Virus record (IMG/VR): IMGVR_UViG_3300033146_005306
Coordinates: 1-20,047 of that record
Source of the DNA: a virus
Length of the DNA stretch: 20,047 nt
Reading direction: 5' to 3' (one strand)
Shown piece by piece: positions 6,037 to 19,247 of this stretch. The translations under genes and the position numbers were made by a program. The number at the start of each line of letters is the position of its first letter. The stretch's first letter is position 1. Under the pieces are notes generated by a model. It was not told where the DNA came from, did no database searches, and was given only the letters and a program-made list of their open reading frames with translations.

Positions 6037-7770
6037 CTAGAACTCGTCGTCAAAGGCCCCTATGCCGATTTCCCCATAGATCCCGTCCCAAGCGCCGTGG
6101 GCTGCGTTGCCCTCGACTATATCATCTTCATCTGAGGCGGCGCGGTAGGTGAACGCGCCCTTTCTGAGCACGGTCTCTGCGATCCATAGGGCCATAACGG
6201 TGTCGTCGTGAAGCTCGCGCCCAAGGGCCCAAAGCTCTTGGATCATCACCCCCACCCGCTGCTTGTCGCTGTCGAGCCTGGAAGGGAAAACCACCTTTCC
6301 CGCTTCAAAGAGGCCGCGGAGGGATGGAACACCATCCCAGTAATCCGCCTTCTTCTTGGTGGTGAGGTGCCCTTTGATCGGAAGATCTGTCGTCTTCTGT
6401 AGCCCGATGTAGTGCAGCTCTCCGAACGCGTTTCGCTCAACTGCAACGGCATGAACGCGTCCCAGCCCCCCGAACTTCTGAAACTCAGCGAGGACCGCAC
6501 CCCTGATCCCGCTAGGACTTAGACCTCTGATCCTCTTGAGCCCCAGGAGATAGCGATCCCCGTTAGCGTCGCGCCCCCATGTAATGCCGACCGTATAATC
6601 TGAATCTTGGGAAGCAGCTTTGGCGGGGTCAGTCACAAGAGAGAAGTCCCAGCCCTGAACAATCTCGAGCCCCTTTACCCCTTCTGGGATCGAGTCGAGC
6701 GAGAGGTGAGCGCCTCGGTCCTGCGCTCGCTGGAGCCACTCCATTTTGAATGGTGCGGAGCTGTCATCCTGAACTTGGTGTTGAAACTCGCGAGCGAAGA
6801 CTAGGGGCGTGATCTCGTCGCGTTCTTCGAGGAGGTACTCAATCGGTCGGTGCTGCGGCCAGAGAACCTTAGAAGGGCCGACCACATCAACCCCAGTGAC
6901 GATCTCCTTTTGAAGCTCAGGGTCATACTCTTTGATAATCGAGTGATCTTCCGGCCACTGGATGATCGCGGGGTCTTCAATCACCCGCCAAGATGCGCGG
7001 CGGGAGAGGTGCCCATACAGATCATCGTGGTGTTTGCGCGTGCCGATAATGATGAACGTGCCTCCTGGTGAGAGCATCGGCGTAACGGTCCCGTTGAACC
7101 ATCCGCGCGTCTTAGCCCGCCCCGCGATTGAGAGCGTGGTTTTATCCGATTCGAGGTCATCACAAAGGATGAGATCGAAGTGCCCGCCCGTGATCGCCCC
7201 ACCCGACCCCACAGCCTCAATCGAGGGGTCCACGCTTTTTCTGAGCCTCTGAACATAGATCGCGGTCTGAGTCCAGCGCGCTGCGTCTTCTTTGCCGCTG
7301 GCCTTGAACGGGAGACATCCGGCCTCGGGCTCGCTCGCCCAGTCCTCCACGATGCGTGGAGACTTCAAAAGAGAGGAGATCCTCTGCAAGCGTTTCTTGC
7401 CCACCTCGGCGGACTCTGAGATCCAAAGGATCCGAATATCTCGATCCTTGCAGAGCTCGCGCAGAGCGATAGTGATCGTTAACTCTGTTTTCCCGTGGTC
7501 ACGGGGGGCTAGGAGCAAGAGCCTGTTCTTGCGCTGTCCGTCCCGCCGCGCGTTGTCGATTGTCCGCGTCGCGATACTGAGCCACCTATCCCGGTGCGCA
7601 GCTCGCCACATTCCGCAGTAGTAGGTGTCGAAGAAGGTCGGGCTTGCCGCTGCAAGGCTGCGCCGCCCTGCGGGAGTTGACACCAACTCTGCCGCAAAAG
7701 CTGTCGCGTCCTCGGGTGAATGGTTTGCCTGTGGTGCGCTCAAGGTGTGGCCTCTCGTCTGTGGTAACAT
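6037..7770 (-). CDS. Terminase large subunit (packaging ATPase-nuclease)
   Basis: A 577-residue DNA-packaging motor. The ATPase domain has Walker A APRDHGKT at 88-95, Walker B FDLILCDD at about 198-205, and a coupling motif around GGTFIIIGTRKHHDD (236-250). The C-terminal RNase H-like nuclease shows the expected acidic residues: D375 in QGWDFSLVTD, E445 in AVERNAFG and D522/D523 in HDDTVMALW. It cuts concatemeric DNA and pumps it through the portal. The ATG at 7770 has no Shine-Dalgarno sequence, whereas a TTG at 7743 (nine codons in) has AGAGG 7 nt upstream, so the true start may be 7743. The call is firm. Confidence 0.92.
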   Translation of the reverse strand: MLPQTRGHTLSAPQANHSPEDATAFAAELVSTPAGRRSLAAASPTFFDTYYCGMWRAAHRDRWLSIATRTIDNARRDGQRKNRLLLLAPRDHGKTELTITIALRELCKDRDIRILWISESAEVGKKRLQRISSLLKSPRIVEDWASEPEAGCLPFKASGKEDAARWTQTAIYVQRLRKSVDPSIEAVGSGGAITGGHFDLILCDDLESDKTTLSIAGRAKTRGWFNGTVTPMLSPGGTFIIIGTRKHHDDLYGHLSRRASWRVIEDPAIIQWPEDHSIIKEYDPELQKEIVTGVDVVGPSKVLWPQHRPIEYLLEERDEITPLVFAREFQHQVQDDSSAPFKMEWLQRAQDRGAHLSLDSIPEGVKGLEIVQGWDFSLVTDPAKAASQDSDYTVGITWGRDANGDRYLLGLKRIRGLSPSGIRGAVLAEFQKFGGLGRVHAVAVERNAFGELHYIGLQKTTDLPIKGHLTTKKKADYWDGVPSLRGLFEAGKVVFPSRLDSDKQRVGVMIQELWALGRELHDDTVMALWIAETVLRKGAFTYRAASDEDDIVEGNAAHGAWDGIYGEIGIGAFDDEF

Positions 7771-7816: not shown

Positions 7817-8191
7817 ATGAACCTAACCAGCGCCAAAAGCAGTATTACCCGCGCGATCAAGCGGGCGATGAGCTCAACAGAGATCGACGTTAACCCCATG
7901 ACGATCTTAGGTGAGAAGGTCAAGGTTGAGATCCACCCACCCAAGAAGGGCAAGGAAGAGGCCAGGGTCTACATCGACTGCGCCGCACGAGGGGTGCGCG
8001 CCCTCGCCCACGCAGACTTTGAATCGGCCTCTGAGGCTTCGGCTGCGCTCGTCGCGGAGTTTGAGGGGGATGAGGTGAAGGCGAGCAAGGCCAGCGAGGC
8101 GCTGGGGGTGAAGCGGGAAGAGGCGCGCGTGAGGCGCGCGAAGCGCCTAGCCGTCAAGCGTGGGGAAGGATCCCAGGCTATAGCTCTCTAA
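7817..8191 (+). CDS. Hypothetical basic protein, lone plus-strand gene
   Basis: A 124-residue protein starting at ATG 7817 (MNLTSAKSSITRAIKRAM) with AAGG 5 nt upstream. The frame is open further upstream to 7625, but that part is antisense to the terminase and has no ribosome site. The protein is Ala/Lys/Glu-rich: a basic N-terminus, a short beta-looking middle (VKVEIHPPKK...ARVYIDCAARG) and a C-terminal helix rich in Lys/Arg (EARVRRAKRLAVKRG). I do not recognise the family. It diverges from the terminase, and its last 45 bp overlap the 3' end of the recombinase-like gene on the other strand. Confidence 0.6.
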   Translation: MNLTSAKSSITRAIKRAMSSTEIDVNPMTILGEKVKVEIHPPKKGKEEARVYIDCAARGVRALAHADFESASEASAALVAEFEGDEVKASKASEALGVKREEARVRRAKRLAVKRGEGSQAIAL

Positions 8192-9193
8192 CAAGTCCTG
8201 GTGAGTGTAATAGTTTTTGACGATGTGGCTTAATCCTCGAGCCGTCCAAGCGCGGCCCTTCCTGTTGACTGAGCCGCTCACCCGCTCCAACACATCAGCC
8301 CACTTGAGCCCCTCTGCGCGGAGGTCTATCACGCGAAGCGTAAACTCAAGCTCGTCGGGCTTTGGGATAAGGCGCCCTCCGAGCCGCCTGAACCCCCAAG
8401 GCCCCATCTTGGGAATCGCGCGCCCGACCTCCCCGCCTGCGAGCTTGGCGCGCTCGTATTTGGTGGAGAGATCCGAAGAGTGAGCCCAGGGCTTTCCGTT
8501 CCTGCGCTTGAGCCCCTTCTCATTGAGCAGCCTTAAAATATCAACCCAGCGCGCGCCCGCGTCGCGCTCCTTTACGATGAGCGCGAGGGTCGCCGCTTCC
8601 TGCTCATCAACGACGGCGGCGGAACCGTCCCACCTCCACCCGTAGGGAAGGCGACCGCTCCTATTCCCCAGGAGCGGTACTGCCGCGCGGGCTGCCACAG
8701 AGACCTCGGCAACCGCGCTGAGGGCAAGCCCCGCTGCGTTGTCTTTATGGATGAAGAGGCCCCGTACGCCGGGAGCTTTAGCCCCTACGAGGCGACGCCC
8801 CCCTGTCTCATAGTTGGAGATGTAGACGCCCCCCAGGGACCGAGAAATCTCCGCCGCGGCCTCATCCACGGTCACGAAGAGATCTGAGAGTGCCCGCATG
8901 ACCAGCGGAGAGCCCGCGCGGAGGGCCTTGAGCACGCAGGCGCGCCCCTCCCTTGCCCCTGGGGCGGTCTTTATGTCGTCGAGATAGAGCGCGAAGGGTG
9001 GTGCGAAGTGGAGGTTATCCTCTGCATAGATACAGAGGGCCTCTTGGGCGTCCTCGAAGATGCTCGCTCGCTCACCTTTTGCGCGGAGCAGGTAGAGCAC
9101 GGGCGGGGGCGGGGGCGGGGGCGCTGGCTTGCGAGGCTTGGGCTTTCGGTCAGGGAATGGTGGAGGGGGGAGGCTGTCGGGTTGGGTTGCCAT
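8147..9193 (-). CDS. Degenerate serine-recombinase-like protein with two recombinase-type domains
   Basis: A 348-residue protein; ATG with GAAGG 8 nt upstream. After a Pro-rich tail (1-31), residues 32-128 follow the outline of a serine resolvase catalytic domain (Y-L-L-R, then LYLDDIKTAPGAREG like the D-x-SG-RPG stretch, then GGVYISNYE). The catalytic Ser position appears to be Lys (K39 in LLRAK), and the D-R-L-x-R stretch reads SDLFVT, so strand cleavage is not expected. Residues 181-248 match the helical Recombinase domain that follows the catalytic domain in large serine recombinases (LPYGWRWDG...VVDEQEA...LNEKGLKRRNGKPW); residues 264-330 look like a second copy (GPWGFRRLGG...WADVLERV...GRAWTARG). 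A DNA-binding, non-catalytic role is likely; what it binds is unknown. Confidence 0.65.
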   Translation of the reverse strand: MATQPDSLPPPPFPDRKPKPRKPAPPPPPPPVLYLLRAKGERASIFEDAQEALCIYAEDNLHFAPPFALYLDDIKTAPGAREGRACVLKALRAGSPLVMRALSDLFVTVDEAAAEISRSLGGVYISNYETGGRRLVGAKAPGVRGLFIHKDNAAGLALSAVAEVSVAARAAVPLLGNRSGRLPYGWRWDGSAAVVDEQEAATLALIVKERDAGARWVDILRLLNEKGLKRRNGKPWAHSSDLSTKYERAKLAGGEVGRAIPKMGPWGFRRLGGRLIPKPDELEFTLRVIDLRAEGLKWADVLERVSGSVNRKGRAWTARGLSHIVKNYYTHQDLLESYSLGSFPTLDG

Positions 9194-13900: not shown

Positions 13901-14017
13901 GAGATGGTCTGCGCCGTCACTGTCTTTCGGATCTCTGAACACAAACCAGAGAGTGATCGCAAAGAGGGTCAGGCGGATAACGAGCCAGAGCGGGCCGTCC
14001 GTGTCGAAGAGGCTCAT
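13895..14017 (-). CDS. Very small membrane protein (40 residues)
   Basis: The ATG overlaps the nuclease gene stop (ATGA) and has AAGGGG 7 nt upstream, so the start is well supported despite the size. The protein is MSLFDTDGP, then one hydrophobic helix (LWLVIRLTLFAITLWFVF), then an acidic tail (RDPKDSDGADHLG). It is a single-pass inner-membrane peptide. It could be a lysis or regulatory peptide or a membrane-targeted inhibitor; nothing decides between these. A short stem-loop covers its stop. Confidence 0.6.
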   Translation of the reverse strand: MSLFDTDGPLWLVIRLTLFAITLWFVFRDPKDSDGADHLG

Positions 14018-14604
14018 AAGAGGGCCCCTTGATGGCTCTTAGGTGGGCGAGGGCCGCGCACCTTGCGCCACCTCTCACCGTCCTTGACGCGTACAGGGAA
14101 ACCCAAGGCCCTGAGCTTCTCTAGGGCGTCCTCGGAGCCGTACCCCATGAGACAGACCCAGCCCTCGCTAAGAAGCGCGTCTAAGTAGACTTTTTGGTGG
14201 GGCTCGGCCCCGCTCCACATCCCCGCGCGGTCTGTCTTCGGCTTCTTTGAGGGCACTTTAAACTCAATCGCGATCCCGCGGGGCGTCTTCAAGAGAAGCC
14301 CGTCCTCATCAGCCGGGAAGCTGATAGAGGGGAAGGGGCGCCCTGTACGCTTGGCCTCGCGCGCCTCCCAAAACACATCAGAGAGAGGAGATGGCGGGCG
14401 GGTGAAGATCATCAGATCAGGGCAGCCCTTCTCTAAGCCCAGGCGGACAGCTCCCGCGGCGGAGGCCCCAGAGAGGGGAAGCCCGTTCGATTGAGCGTTG
14501 AAGAGAATGTGCAGGCGTCGCAGCTCGCGGACCACGAATGCCTGCTCTACGTCCTCGAGTTTGCGGCGCTTCGGCCCCTTGCGTGGCCCGGTGCGTGGTT
14601 TCAT
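14014..14604 (-). CDS. VRR-NUC domain nuclease
   Basis: A 196-residue protein, ATG with AAAGGA 9 nt upstream. Motifs of the VRR-NUC branch of the PD-(D/E)xK nucleases are in order: a helix with LEDVEQAFVVRELRRL near residues 16-31, LEKGCPDLMIF (about 57-67) carrying the catalytic Asp, IAIEFKVPSKKPK (about 110-122) with the E-x-K, then EPHQKVYLDALLSEGW and the closing GSEDALEKL. An insertion of about 40 residues between the Asp and the E-x-K is longer than usual. Phage members are thought to process branched or replication DNA. It lies among replication-type genes and is coupled to the 40-residue membrane peptide. Confidence 0.8.
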   Translation of the reverse strand: MKPRTGPRKGPKRRKLEDVEQAFVVRELRRLHILFNAQSNGLPLSGASAAGAVRLGLEKGCPDLMIFTRPPSPLSDVFWEAREAKRTGRPFPSISFPADEDGLLLKTPRGIAIEFKVPSKKPKTDRAGMWSGAEPHQKVYLDALLSEGWVCLMGYGSEDALEKLRALGFPVRVKDGERWRKVRGPRPPKSHQGALL

Positions 14605-15475: not shown

Positions 15476-16513
15476 TTATGCGTCGAGGTTCGAAACGGCG
15501 CCCGATTTCGAGCAGTACGCAAGCTCAACCACGCCTCGCGGGGTCGCTCTGCTCTTTGCGCAGATCATCTCAAGGACTCCCCGGCGCGGCGAGTCGTCTT
15601 GATAGACCTCCTCACGGTGCAGGAGGAAGATGCGTGAGGAGTGCTGCGCTATGGCGTCGCGCTCTCGGAGATCCTCAAGCCTGGGGCGCTTGTCGGGGCG
15701 CTCGTCGATAGGAGCTAAGAGGCCCTCAGAGTAGCCACGCGGAATCGTAGTCGTCACAAGGAGAGGCACCGAAAACTCACCTGCGACACCTAGAAGCCTC
15801 CTGATCGTCTCATCAAACTCAACCTCGCGAGACTCACGGCGAGGGCCACTGAGGAGCTCCGCGCGGTCGATCACAACAAGCCCGACAGGCGGGGCGTCGC
15901 TCTGCGCGACGATTTGAACCTCGTCGCGCACATCGTCAACGCTCATTGCACCATCGAAGATATGCAGGGGGGCCCGGTCTAACTCCCCGAGCGCCTTCAC
16001 GACGAAGCCCAGGGCGGCCCCGTCGATGGCGGCAGCATCGCCCGTCTCTGCGAAGCGGAGGACATCACCCCGATCAGCTTTTGCGCGACCTGAGATCATA
16101 AGGGACCGAACCTCGGTTTTCGTGCTTTCAGTCGAGAAGTAGAGGACGGAAAACCCATCGAGTGCGACGTTCACTGCGTCCGCGCAGGCTTTTGATGTCT
16201 TCCCCATTCCGGGGCGGCCCGCGAGCGCGGTCAACGTGCCGGGTCGATACATCCCGAAATCACGATCTATCGCGGCGAAGCCGGAGTTGACACGCGCCAC
16301 GGGGGAGGGGCGTCCGGGCGCGATGGTGGACACTGGGCTCATGTTCACAGCGCCGCCCGTCATCTGTGAGATTTTCTGAGCTGTGCTCTCGGAAGGGGAG
16401 TACGCCACGTTGGGCGCACAAAGCCGATCAATTGTGTTTTTTGAGACCCCGACCATTAGGGCGAAGTGCTCTCGGCGGATGGCGTTTTGGCGCAAGTAGC
16501 TTGAGAGTTTCAT
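15476..16513 (-). CDS. HTH domain fused to a DnaB-type helicase C-terminal ATPase domain
   Basis: A 345-residue protein from ATG 16513 (MKLSSYLRQNAIRR), a typical XRE-type N-terminus. ATG 16537 and TTG 16549 are alternative starts; none has a well-spaced ribosome site. Residues 1-45 form an XRE-like helix-turn-helix (HFALMVGVSKNTIDRL). Residues 80-345 follow the DnaB/RecA-fold domain: FAAIDRDFGMYRPGTLTALA, Walker A GRPGMGKT (99-106), Walker B GLVVIDRAELL (Asp near 216), then KRPRLEDLRERDAIAQ and IFLLHREEVYQDD, where DnaB has D-L-R-SGAIEQ and its arginine finger, and a final CAKSRATPRGVVEL. The DnaB N-terminal domain is missing, replaced by the HTH. It diverges from the initiator gene across operator-like repeats. 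It may be the phage helicase, a regulator, or both. Confidence 0.8.
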   Translation of the reverse strand: MKLSSYLRQNAIRREHFALMVGVSKNTIDRLCAPNVAYSPSESTAQKISQMTGGAVNMSPVSTIAPGRPSPVARVNSGFAAIDRDFGMYRPGTLTALAGRPGMGKTSKACADAVNVALDGFSVLYFSTESTKTEVRSLMISGRAKADRGDVLRFAETGDAAAIDGAALGFVVKALGELDRAPLHIFDGAMSVDDVRDEVQIVAQSDAPPVGLVVIDRAELLSGPRRESREVEFDETIRRLLGVAGEFSVPLLVTTTIPRGYSEGLLAPIDERPDKRPRLEDLRERDAIAQHSSRIFLLHREEVYQDDSPRRGVLEMICAKSRATPRGVVELAYCSKSGAVSNLDA

Positions 16514-16545
16514 GAAAAAGACTTTAGCGAGGCTCATCCTTTCGT

Positions 16546-16585
16546 GCAATAGTTGATTGCTCCTTTTATTGGACTCCGAGCAATC
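16546..16585. promoter_or_regulatory. Operator-like GCAAT half-sites in the divergent promoter region
   Basis: GCAAT occurs at 16546-16550 and 16580-16584 and inverted (ATTGC) at 16556-16560. GATTGCTC (16555-16562) with GAGCAATC (16578-16585) is a perfect 8-bp inverted repeat, and GCAAT-agttg-ATTGC a second, overlapping one. The sites lie at the 5' end of the HTH-helicase gene and beside a weak plus-strand promoter candidate (TTGGAC, 18 bp, GATACA). They suit repression by an HTH protein; binding is inferred. Confidence 0.5.
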
Positions 16586-16629
16586 TTTCTGCGATACACA
16601 CGGTTAAGCGCAAAACAGGAGGAAAAGCC

Positions 16630-18087
16630 ATGGCAAACACCGGGGTTGAGCAAAAGGGCCGATTCGGGCGCCTCATGGGGGCCACCTTCCGGTCCAAGCT
16701 AGGGCGCCGAGACAAGATGGTCTTGATGGCGATTATCACGCTGGCCGGAGATGACGGCGTGTGCCGCTACGGGAAAAAAGCAATCTCCGATCTGACTGAG
16801 TACGACCGCAAAACCATAGGGCGTTCTCTTGCGGTCCTGAGACGCCTCGGGTTGATCGATGAGGTCAAGGGGGCGCAGTCCTGGTTCCCCTCGTCTAGAG
16901 TGTTAAAGGTCGCCGAAATTGAGGCGTTGAGAGCCCGAGACGTTGAGGGATACGCGGAGATCGTCGAGGAGCAGGCGGCTGCCATAAACCCAAAGCGTAA
17001 GCGCCTCACCAAAGCCGAACGTAGCGAAAGAGCCAAAGCCCGCGCGGCGGCGCGGGCAACCAAAAATAAGGCTGAGAGGGCCCTAGGTGGGGACACAGTG
17101 TCCCTAGGTGGGGACACAGTGTCCCTAGGTGGGGACACAGTGTCCCTAGGTGGGGACACAGTGTCCCTAGGTGGGGACACAGTGTCCCTACCCTGGGGAC
17201 ACAGTGTCCCTACCCTGGGTGCCGAAAACCCTAGTGCCCCTACGCACACACGCGCGCGCTCTTTTTCTGACTCTGTATCTGACTCTGTATCTGACTCTGT
17301 ATCTGACTCTGTATCTGACGAAGGCGGGGCGGCGGGCGGCTTGGGCCAGGAAGCTCTAGAGGGGCTTGTTTTCTGGGCTAAGACGCTCAAGGTGAGGAAG
17401 TCAGACCAGACCAGAAGCGCGAACCCGAGCACGACAAAGGGAGATGTCCGCCTTAGTGCTCTGCGCTGGTTTCTAGAAAACACCCCCGACCGTAGCCTCT
17501 TAAACGTGAAGCTCGGCTGCCTGGGTTGCAAAGTGAAGATCGCCCGACAGCGCGCGGACAACTTCAACCCAGGGGCGACCTATGACGAGCTCACCCGCAT
17601 TGTCGCCGACCGGGACAGCCTTGATATGCACTCGAAGCACCTACTCACCCCGTCGTCAGTAATCCCGACGCCGGGAGAACTGGAACTTGAGGATTTGGCC
17701 TCAACGCCCGAGGGCTTGGACACGTTGAGGGCTCACGCCGAGGAGTTGGCAACCCGCGCTCAGACTCGTGAGCCATATCGCCCGGCCCGCACACGAAGCC
17801 AAGGGGGAGGTCGCCAGAGCAACCGAACCGGGATCAGGGCGCAATTCACCGACGAGCAGCGACGAGGGTTCCTGTCGCTGGTCGCGAACGGATCAAAGCC
17901 TCTCGACGGAGAGATCACCGCACGCGAGGCCGCTGACCTCGGGGTTTCACGCCAAGAGATGTTGAGAGCCTATGAAGGCGGGGCAGATGCGCGGGCGCGC
18001 GTGCTGGAGGCTCGCGCGAAAACCGAGGCCGACTTAGAAGCCGAGGCCGATGAGATTTGGGGCTCTGCCGCTAAAGCCTGGCGATAA
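16630..18087 (+). CDS. Phage replication initiator (lambda O-like role) with internal origin
   Basis: A 485-residue protein with a strong AGGAGG site 7 nt before its ATG. Residues 20-90 form a winged helix of the kind in phage replication proteins (RRDKMVLMAIITLA...GKKAISDLTEYDRKTIGRSLAVLRRLGLIDEV). A basic linker follows (about 118-150), then a repeat region: five LGGDTVS units (about 152-186) and a Ser-Asp-Ser-Val repeat (about 215-232). These are the translations of DNA repeats that look like an origin. The rest (240-485) has a Cys pair (GCLGC) and helical, charged sequence and probably contacts the helicase or loader. The next gene is a DnaC-like loader, the order seen in lambda (O then P). 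Function is inferred from this architecture. Confidence 0.75.
   Translation: MANTGVEQKGRFGRLMGATFRSKLGRRDKMVLMAIITLAGDDGVCRYGKKAISDLTEYDRKTIGRSLAVLRRLGLIDEVKGAQSWFPSSRVLKVAEIEALRARDVEGYAEIVEEQAAAINPKRKRLTKAERSERAKARAAARATKNKAERALGGDTVSLGGDTVSLGGDTVSLGGDTVSLGGDTVSLPWGHSVPTLGAENPSAPTHTRARSFSDSVSDSVSDSVSDSVSDEGGAAGGLGQEALEGLVFWAKTLKVRKSDQTRSANPSTTKGDVRLSALRWFLENTPDRSLLNVKLGCLGCKVKIARQRADNFNPGATYDELTRIVADRDSLDMHSKHLLTPSSVIPTPGELELEDLASTPEGLDTLRAHAEELATRAQTREPYRPARTRSQGGGRQSNRTGIRAQFTDEQRRGFLSLVANGSKPLDGEITAREAADLGVSRQEMLRAYEGGADARARVLEARAKTEADLEAEADEIWGSAAKAWR
17081..17210 (+). repeat. Iteron array, putative replication origin
   Basis: Five exact 21-bp tandem units (17081-17185) and a sixth 22-bp variant (17186-17207). 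Each carries the core GGGGACACAGTGTCCC, palindromic around a central A (cores at 17089, 17110, 17131, 17152, 17173 and 17195). The 21-bp period keeps the initiator reading frame. Iterons inside the initiator gene match the layout of lambda ori within O. Probable binding sites of the protein encoded around them. Confidence 0.75.
17266..17319 (+). repeat. 12-bp tandem repeats, putative origin unwinding element
   Basis: TCTGACTCTGTA is repeated four times exactly (17266-17313) plus a half unit. It is locally lower in G+C than its surroundings and starts 56 bp after the last iteron core. Repeats beside iterons often mark the DNA-unwinding region of an origin. The 12-bp period encodes SDSV units and keeps the frame. 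Confidence 0.6.
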
Positions 18088-18122: not shown

Positions 18123-19247
18123 ATGAGCGACTACACAAAGACCCACGGCCTCAGTGATGAGCGAGTGAACCAATTAGAAGCCCGCGCGAAAGAGGTCGCG
18201 CATCAGCCCCCGCCTGACCCCAAGGACGTAAAAGAAGCACTGAAGACGCTAAGAGAGAGCAAGCCGAGAGGCGGAGAGCCTACAAGCTGGGAGGACGCCT
18301 TCGATAATGCCATCGCGACCCTTGAGGCGATGAGAGACGCCCAACGTGCGAAGCGGGCCGAGCTCGGGCTTGTCGAGGAGACCCCCGAGGACACCGAGAT
18401 CTGGCCGGACTTCCCCCAGGAGGCCCACTTTGAGCTATACGCCGACACAATACACACGCCATGGATGAAGGACGCGGAGAGCATCACCGCCGCGCGGCTC
18501 GCTCTGCCATGCGCACGCTGCGACGCCGACGGGTTTAGTTATGACGTTGCAGAGAACGGATACGACCGAAGAGTGCGGCGGTGTCGGTGCTACGGCTGGA
18601 AGAAGAACGCAAAGTTCCTCAGCGAGTCACGATTGCCCGCGAGGGCCGCCGCGCACGGGCTTGATCGGATAAATTGGCGATTGGTCTCTGCAAGCCGCCT
18701 GGTCCCCTCCGCTTTCGGGGACGCGCGCTTTGAGCCGGTGAGCATTGAGAGCGAGGCTCGAAGGATCTTGAGGCGCACCTCTCACGAAGGGAGCGGGCGC
18801 TTAGGACTTCTCCTCTACGGTGACACGGGGACAGCTAAGAGCCACATTATCCAAGGGCTAGGGCGCCGCGCTGCGCTCGTTTACGGGGCAAAGGTTCGCT
18901 GGGTCAACTGGCCGTCGCTCCTAGAGCGCCTCAAGTCCAGCTTCAACGGGTCCGGCGAGACAGTCTCTTCAATCATCGGCTGGCTGACCTCCTGCGACAT
19001 GCTGATCCTTGACGAAATCGGGGGCGAGAACGTGAGCGGGTGGGCTCAAACACGGATGGAGGAGGTTTTGACGATCTGCGAGAACAGAGGAATCACGCTG
19101 CTAGCCTCCACGAACTACGGAAAAGATCGCCTGAAGAGGGAGATCGGAGAGCCGAGCGTTTCACGACTCCTCGGCCTGTGTGAATTGGTGGTGATGCAAG
19201 GTCGAGATTACCGTTCGATGAGCGTAAAAGAGCGCGAGGCGCGCTAA
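18123..19247 (+). CDS. DnaC-like AAA+ replicative helicase loader
   Basis: A 374-residue protein with AAAGGAAAAG before its ATG. The N-terminal 110 residues are charged and Pro-rich, followed by a zinc-type cluster (CARC at 130-133, CRC at 154-156). The C-terminal AAA+ domain of the DnaC/IstB type has Walker A GDTGTAKS (233-240), Walker B DMLILDE (292-298), sensor 1 ASTNYG (about 328-333) and a C-terminal SVSRLLGLCELVVMQGRDYR like the arginine-bearing end of DnaC. The Walker A has Ala where most have Gly before the Lys, a form seen in MCM proteins. It should load a DnaB-type helicase at the origin in the gene just upstream; the partner could be the host DnaB or the window's HTH-DnaB-like protein. 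Confidence 0.85.
   Translation: MSDYTKTHGLSDERVNQLEARAKEVAHQPPPDPKDVKEALKTLRESKPRGGEPTSWEDAFDNAIATLEAMRDAQRAKRAELGLVEETPEDTEIWPDFPQEAHFELYADTIHTPWMKDAESITAARLALPCARCDADGFSYDVAENGYDRRVRRCRCYGWKKNAKFLSESRLPARAAAHGLDRINWRLVSASRLVPSAFGDARFEPVSIESEARRILRRTSHEGSGRLGLLLYGDTGTAKSHIIQGLGRRAALVYGAKVRWVNWPSLLERLKSSFNGSGETVSSIIGWLTSCDMLILDEIGGENVSGWAQTRMEEVLTICENRGITLLASTNYGKDRLKREIGEPSVSRLLGLCELVVMQGRDYRSMSVKEREAR

Follow-up and report, generated by a model that had tools for sequence, protein, structure and literature searches.

The gene described here joins, in a single reading frame, a Cro-type HTH to a DnaB-family ATPase core, the HTH standing in for the N-terminal domain (NTD) and linker of DnaB. 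This architecture is well supported; what the protein does we infer from it. On the tests made, the fusion falls outside the standard DnaB replicative helicases, being without their NTD, linker helix and ssDNA-loop features, though its motor belongs to the DnaB family. Tentatively, and with rather less than even confidence, it is read here as a regulator with a DnaB fold, targeted by its Cro-type HTH and dependent on ATP, that controls the phage replication module, and not as a conventional processive replicative helicase.

The window analysed is the whole virus record IMGVR_UViG_3300033146_005306 (20,047 bases). Since it holds only a partial phage gene set and carries no completeness estimate, it is probably a phage fragment, linear and metagenome-derived. 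Genes for portal, terminase and head lie on the minus strand; the plus strand carries an initiator of HTH_36/lambda-O-like type, followed by a DnaC-like loader (Table 1).

Table 1. Positions of the fusion gene, its parts and the neighbouring replication features in the window
Feature	Coordinates	Strand	Remarks
Cro-HTH/DnaB_C fusion gene	15476..16513	-	345 aa, P0001
XRE/Cro-type HTH, residues 1-57	16343..16513	-	
Short linker, residues 58-74, where DnaB has its linker helix	16292..16342	-	predicted without a helix; pLDDT under 50 at residues 53-66
DnaB-family (SF4) ATPase core, residues 75-345	15479..16291	-	
Walker A, residues 98-106, AGRPGMGKT	16196..16222	-	conserved
Motif H3, residues 254-259, TTTIPR	15737..15754	-	invariant Gln replaced by T256
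ssDNA loop/H4, residues 281-290, DLRERDAIAQ	15644..15673	-	SGxxE replaced by RDxxA (R285, D286, A289)
Candidate operator, perfect 8-bp inverted repeat GATTGCTC-N15-GAGCAATC	16555..16585		weak statistics
Initiator protein, HTH_36/lambda-O-like	16630..18087	+	weak matches, E about 5e-4
Six perfect GGGACACAGTGTCCC iterons within the initiator gene	17090..17210	+	15-bp palindromes, period 21-22 bp
Tandem 12-bp repeats	17259..17319	+	lower GC (0.45), possible unwinding element
DnaC-like helicase loader	18123..19247	+	phrog_50 E=1e-26

The fusion ORF is real and gives 345 aa from ATG 16513 on the minus strand. The product of this start begins 'MKLSSYL...', resembling Cro-type proteins that begin 'MNLASYL' and 'MKLGTFI'. 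Other in-frame starts are ATG 16537 and TTG 16549. The latter, with AAAGGAG upstream, overlaps the candidate operator and would lengthen the fusion by 12 residues.

Sequence comparison and modelling together assign residues 1-57 to the XRE/Cro-type HTHs, with a lambda-repressor-like fold. Profile matches at the N-terminus (HTH_3, E=0.05; HTH_26, E=0.07; the repressor family phrog_2328, E=0.05) each fall short of curated significance, and all agree. In tblastn searches of phage and plasmid collections, residues 1-62 alone matched mainly Cro-like and other HTH proteins, the best being a Cro-like protein of a Microcystis phage (E=4e-3, 42% identity); no DnaB was among the matches, though both collections hold many. 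A Cro-family HMM was built without the query from relatives of this Microcystis Cro, a seed itself picked as the query's best match. It scored the fusion N-terminus at 39.5 bits, and the highest of 10,000 shuffles reached 11.0. An earlier Cro HMM, made from the query's own matches, was discarded as circular. A DnaB-NTD HMM derived from 87 phage proteins gave the same N-terminus 0.8 bits, a score equalled by 273 of 10,000 shuffles, and no Pfam NTD family matched the fusion. The original prediction, that an XRE-like HTH replaces the DnaB NTD, is thus borne out by the two profiles (39.5 against 0.8 bits); it had named as contrary outcomes an N-terminus that is not an HTH or one that is an ordinary variant of the DnaB NTD, and the profile searches returned neither.

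The monomer structure prediction proposed earlier partly agrees with the profiles. Single-sequence AlphaFold2 gives an HTH at the N-terminus, with helices at residues 3-9, 14-21, 25-32 and 42-51 (block pLDDT about 62-81), and this part of the model resembles the XRE HTH structures of the CapH NTD, DR_2454 and SinR (TM 0.65-0.71 by target length). AlphaFold2 run with a DnaB alignment disagrees there, placing one long helix at residues 2-31 instead of the HTH. It is unreliable for residues 1-60 because the sequences in its alignment set the HTH against the hairpin of the DnaB NTD; the long helix was probably forced by the alignment, and the two models still conflict. Between residues 53 and 79 this second model contains no helix that could serve as the linker helix, a model-based negative of moderate strength. 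In DnaB the linker helix docks on the adjoining subunit; that of E. coli spans residues 182-202 (PMC6391071).

The C-terminal part is a DnaB core, as originally predicted. PF03796 (DnaB_C) matches residues 75-336 with E=8e-34 (117.6 bits against a cut-off of 27), and phrog_19 matches at 6e-40; with TIGR00665 the fusion scores 127 bits, the cut-off being 385. The nearest solved relatives are DnaB helicases (2q6t, 3e-28; Bst DnaB, 4e-26), and the alignment begins only at residue 68-71. When modelled by AlphaFold2 with the DnaB alignment, the core reaches a block pLDDT mostly above 90, and Foldseek matches it to the DnaB structures 3bh0 and 6kza (TM 0.86 and 0.83 by target length). Membership of the KaiC or RadA families was rejected (E=0.025 and 0.0017, against 8e-34 for DnaB_C).

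Comparison was made with 89 DnaBs: the 80 closest relatives in IMG/VR and nine further proteins. The fusion has 97 residues before Walker A; the complete DnaBs of this set have at least 180, and the two exceptions (L068 and L061) are ORFs cut by the contig end. Judged by its residues, the ATPase site is intact: Walker A (R100, P101, G104 and K105), the catalytic Glu (E129), the Walker B Asp (D216) and the Lys/Arg fingers (K320 and R322) are all retained. The fusion thus shares with DnaB helicases (PF03796, TIGR00665, phrog_19) the core fold, Walker A/B, catalytic Glu and Lys/Arg fingers, at about 25-33% core identity. Unlike them, it carries a Cro HTH, is without NTD and linker helix, and has lost the H3 Gln and the ssDNA-loop SGxxE.

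These losses are selective. Four positions invariant in all 89 DnaBs are changed: Q has become T256, S has become R285, G has become D286 and E has become A289. The same alignment shows that near-invariant residues have also been lost, with L241 in place of K, R217 in place of Y and S130 in place of M. R283, E284, R259 and Q290 are retained. Bst DnaB grips the ssDNA backbone through R381, E382 and G384 (PMC6391071, PMC8421360). Aligned to Bst DnaB, these are R283, E284 and D286 of the fusion; two contacts are kept, the third is now acidic, and the changed residues lie at or beside these published phosphate contacts. The segment DLRERDAI, which had been taken as typical of DnaB, turns out to depart from the invariant DLRESGxxE, and a DNA pattern search for DLRERDxI found no further case. 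With four invariant H3/ssDNA-loop residues replaced, the usual translocation along ssDNA is doubtful on sequence grounds.

An intact ATPase combined with changed ssDNA-loop and H3 residues would tilt the balance towards a regulator. A site-targeted working helicase is nevertheless a close rival, and one we regard as possible though more doubtful than probable. Such a helicase would find its own start: the HTH, replacing the NTD, would tether the DnaB core to the control region or the iterons, and the DnaC-like loader would put the core on melted DNA. The complete set of ATPase residues, the retained R283, E284, R259 and Q290, and a gene that adjoins those for initiator and loader are all consistent with it. 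A DnaB core that lacks both NTD and linker is able to unwind DNA when it bears a thioredoxin tag (PMC4523182), so that the missing NTD alone is no argument against a helicase. The four lost invariant residues and the linker helix absent from the AlphaFold2 model do weigh against it, as does gene order: the fusion gene points away from initiator and loader, and in the related phages examined the helicase stands in a run with an upstream replication gene.

A third explanation is a decoy or dominant-negative DnaB, whose core would bind and titrate the phage loader or the host DnaB while the HTH would hold the protein near the phage origin or limit its own expression. The core fold does resemble the DnaC-binding DnaB domain (6kza, above), and the ssDNA loop is changed; intact Lys/Arg fingers would be superfluous in such a protein, and we consider it improbable.

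The fusion is a singleton in the collections searched, on this 20-kb phage fragment. No second example appeared among the inspected matches from IMG/VR, GTDB genomes, INPHARED and PLSDB. Inspection covered part of the matches, and fusions alike only in the core may have escaped it. The sole IMG/VR match of the fusion in the relative search (L001) is an ordinary full-length DnaB, and the INPHARED matches that seemed to span the N-terminus (Cato, MT837181, P12026, RCIP0114, BUCT628, Sansa, PPyecE and phiT1) are full-length DnaBs on inspection; a GTDB scan with the fusion gave nothing. The claim that no named family has this architecture also held, with no library model or paper found that names an XRE/Cro-DnaB_C family. 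A defence-system role for the fusion was checked and dropped.

Rarity is one of three points that would suit a non-functional or recent accidental fusion, now decaying, in which a deletion joined a Cro gene to dnaB or an assembly error did so; the others are the loss of invariant residues and the nature of the record, a linear metagenome-derived fragment. This explanation is very improbable. The frame is open with uniform codon-position GC, every ATPase residue was kept while others were lost, and an assembly chimera would leave the H3/H4 changes, which lie far from the junction, unexplained.

The place of the gene bears on the regulator reading. The fusion gene runs away from initiator and loader, as had been noted (minus strand against plus strand for both), and 116 bp separate it from the divergent initiator gene. 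Repeats had been claimed at 16540-16600; one perfect 8-bp inverted repeat does lie there and nothing more, its significance being weak (matched by randomised sequences in 6/300 and 93/2000 cases). Since randomised sequences yield repeats as good, it counts as no more than a candidate operator. In the phages that carry the nearest Cro relatives, Cro adjoins a CI/XRE gene where a control region serves divergent genes, and the fusion gene occupies a comparable place, one in which phages often have Cro/CI.

For the preferred regulator, a working scheme can be proposed. Through its HTH the protein would settle on a site within the 116-bp control region and there repress its own promoter, the initiator promoter or both, as Cro does. 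The DnaB core would supply ATP-dependent oligomerisation and perhaps loader contact, and ATP state or loader availability would thereby switch phage replication. Counted in favour of a regulator are the identity of the HTH, the complete ATPase residues, the lost invariant residues, the Cro-like divergent position and the candidate operator. Counted against it are the retained R283, E284, R259 and Q290, with which translocation may persist, the statistical weakness of the operator and the singleton status of the fusion. The stronger claim, that the phage has turned a DnaB ATPase into an ATP-gated Cro-type switch on its replication control region, coupling repression to loader or nucleotide state and no longer unwinding DNA, is possible and held with somewhat more reserve.

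The iterons might seem an alternative target. The repeats at 17081-17330 (plus strand) translate as GGDTVSL and SDSV repeats of the initiator. In the lambda O system, the origin lies inside the initiator gene and its iterons are bound by the initiator. By that analogy, 17081-17330 is a candidate lambda-O-like intragenic origin, and its iterons are more simply explained as predicted initiator sites than as sites for the fusion protein.

Known systems share parts of this design. The Cro-like regulators of Microcystis phage Mae-JY02 and Paracoccus phage Pthi1 have HTHs 42% and 35% identical to that of the fusion, with a similar start, a GAV ending and a divergent control-region position; they differ in being free-standing (66 and 98 aa) and without an ATPase. 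DnaB relatives without an NTD include mycobacteriophage D29 gp65 and RSF1010 RepA (PMC4523182). Both resemble the fusion in having an SF4 core and no DnaB NTD, and differ from it in having no HTH. D29 gp65, of 232 aa, has Asp where the catalytic Glu stands, whereas the fusion keeps Glu; no RepA chain was among the PDB sequence matches of the fusion at E<=1. Work-alikes are the HTH-ATPases of P1 ParA type and the alpha protein of phage P4, in each of which a P-loop ATPase carries a DNA-binding domain. ParA, of the ParA/MinD ATPase family, is an ATP-dependent autorepressor, and P4 alpha, an SF3 helicase, is an origin-binding helicase; neither family is that of the fusion. No named family with the XRE/Cro-DnaB_C architecture was found in the literature.

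If the protein works as a helicase, then a ring helicase can recognise its site through a domain of its own that has taken over from the NTD, a result of interest for helicase recruitment to origins and for the role of the NTD. Should it prove to be a regulator, the motor of a helicase has been put to use in switching genes, and the ParA-type HTH-ATPases have a counterpart with a DnaB fold. In both cases the protein makes it possible to test directly what loading, ring assembly and translocation each require of DnaB.

Other genes of the window give some context for the phage. For the terminase (6037-7770, minus strand) the IMG/VR scan found only two relatives (L011 and L012; 57%), each on a 7-kb fragment without a replication region, and a scan of GTDB genomes found none. 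Loader, portal and initiator had no useful relatives in IMG/VR. From these sparse terminase relatives, the lineage appears poorly sampled. The product of 8147-9193 (minus strand) is serine-recombinase-like, matching the PF07508 Recombinase domain and the phrog_95 integrase with no resolvase catalytic domain detected; it is possibly a degenerate integrase, and for that reason a temperate ancestry is possible. The gene at 14014-14604 (minus strand), which shares a leftward gene run with the fusion gene, matches phrog_824 and, weakly, the Holliday-junction resolvase family phrog_5702 (E=0.0025).
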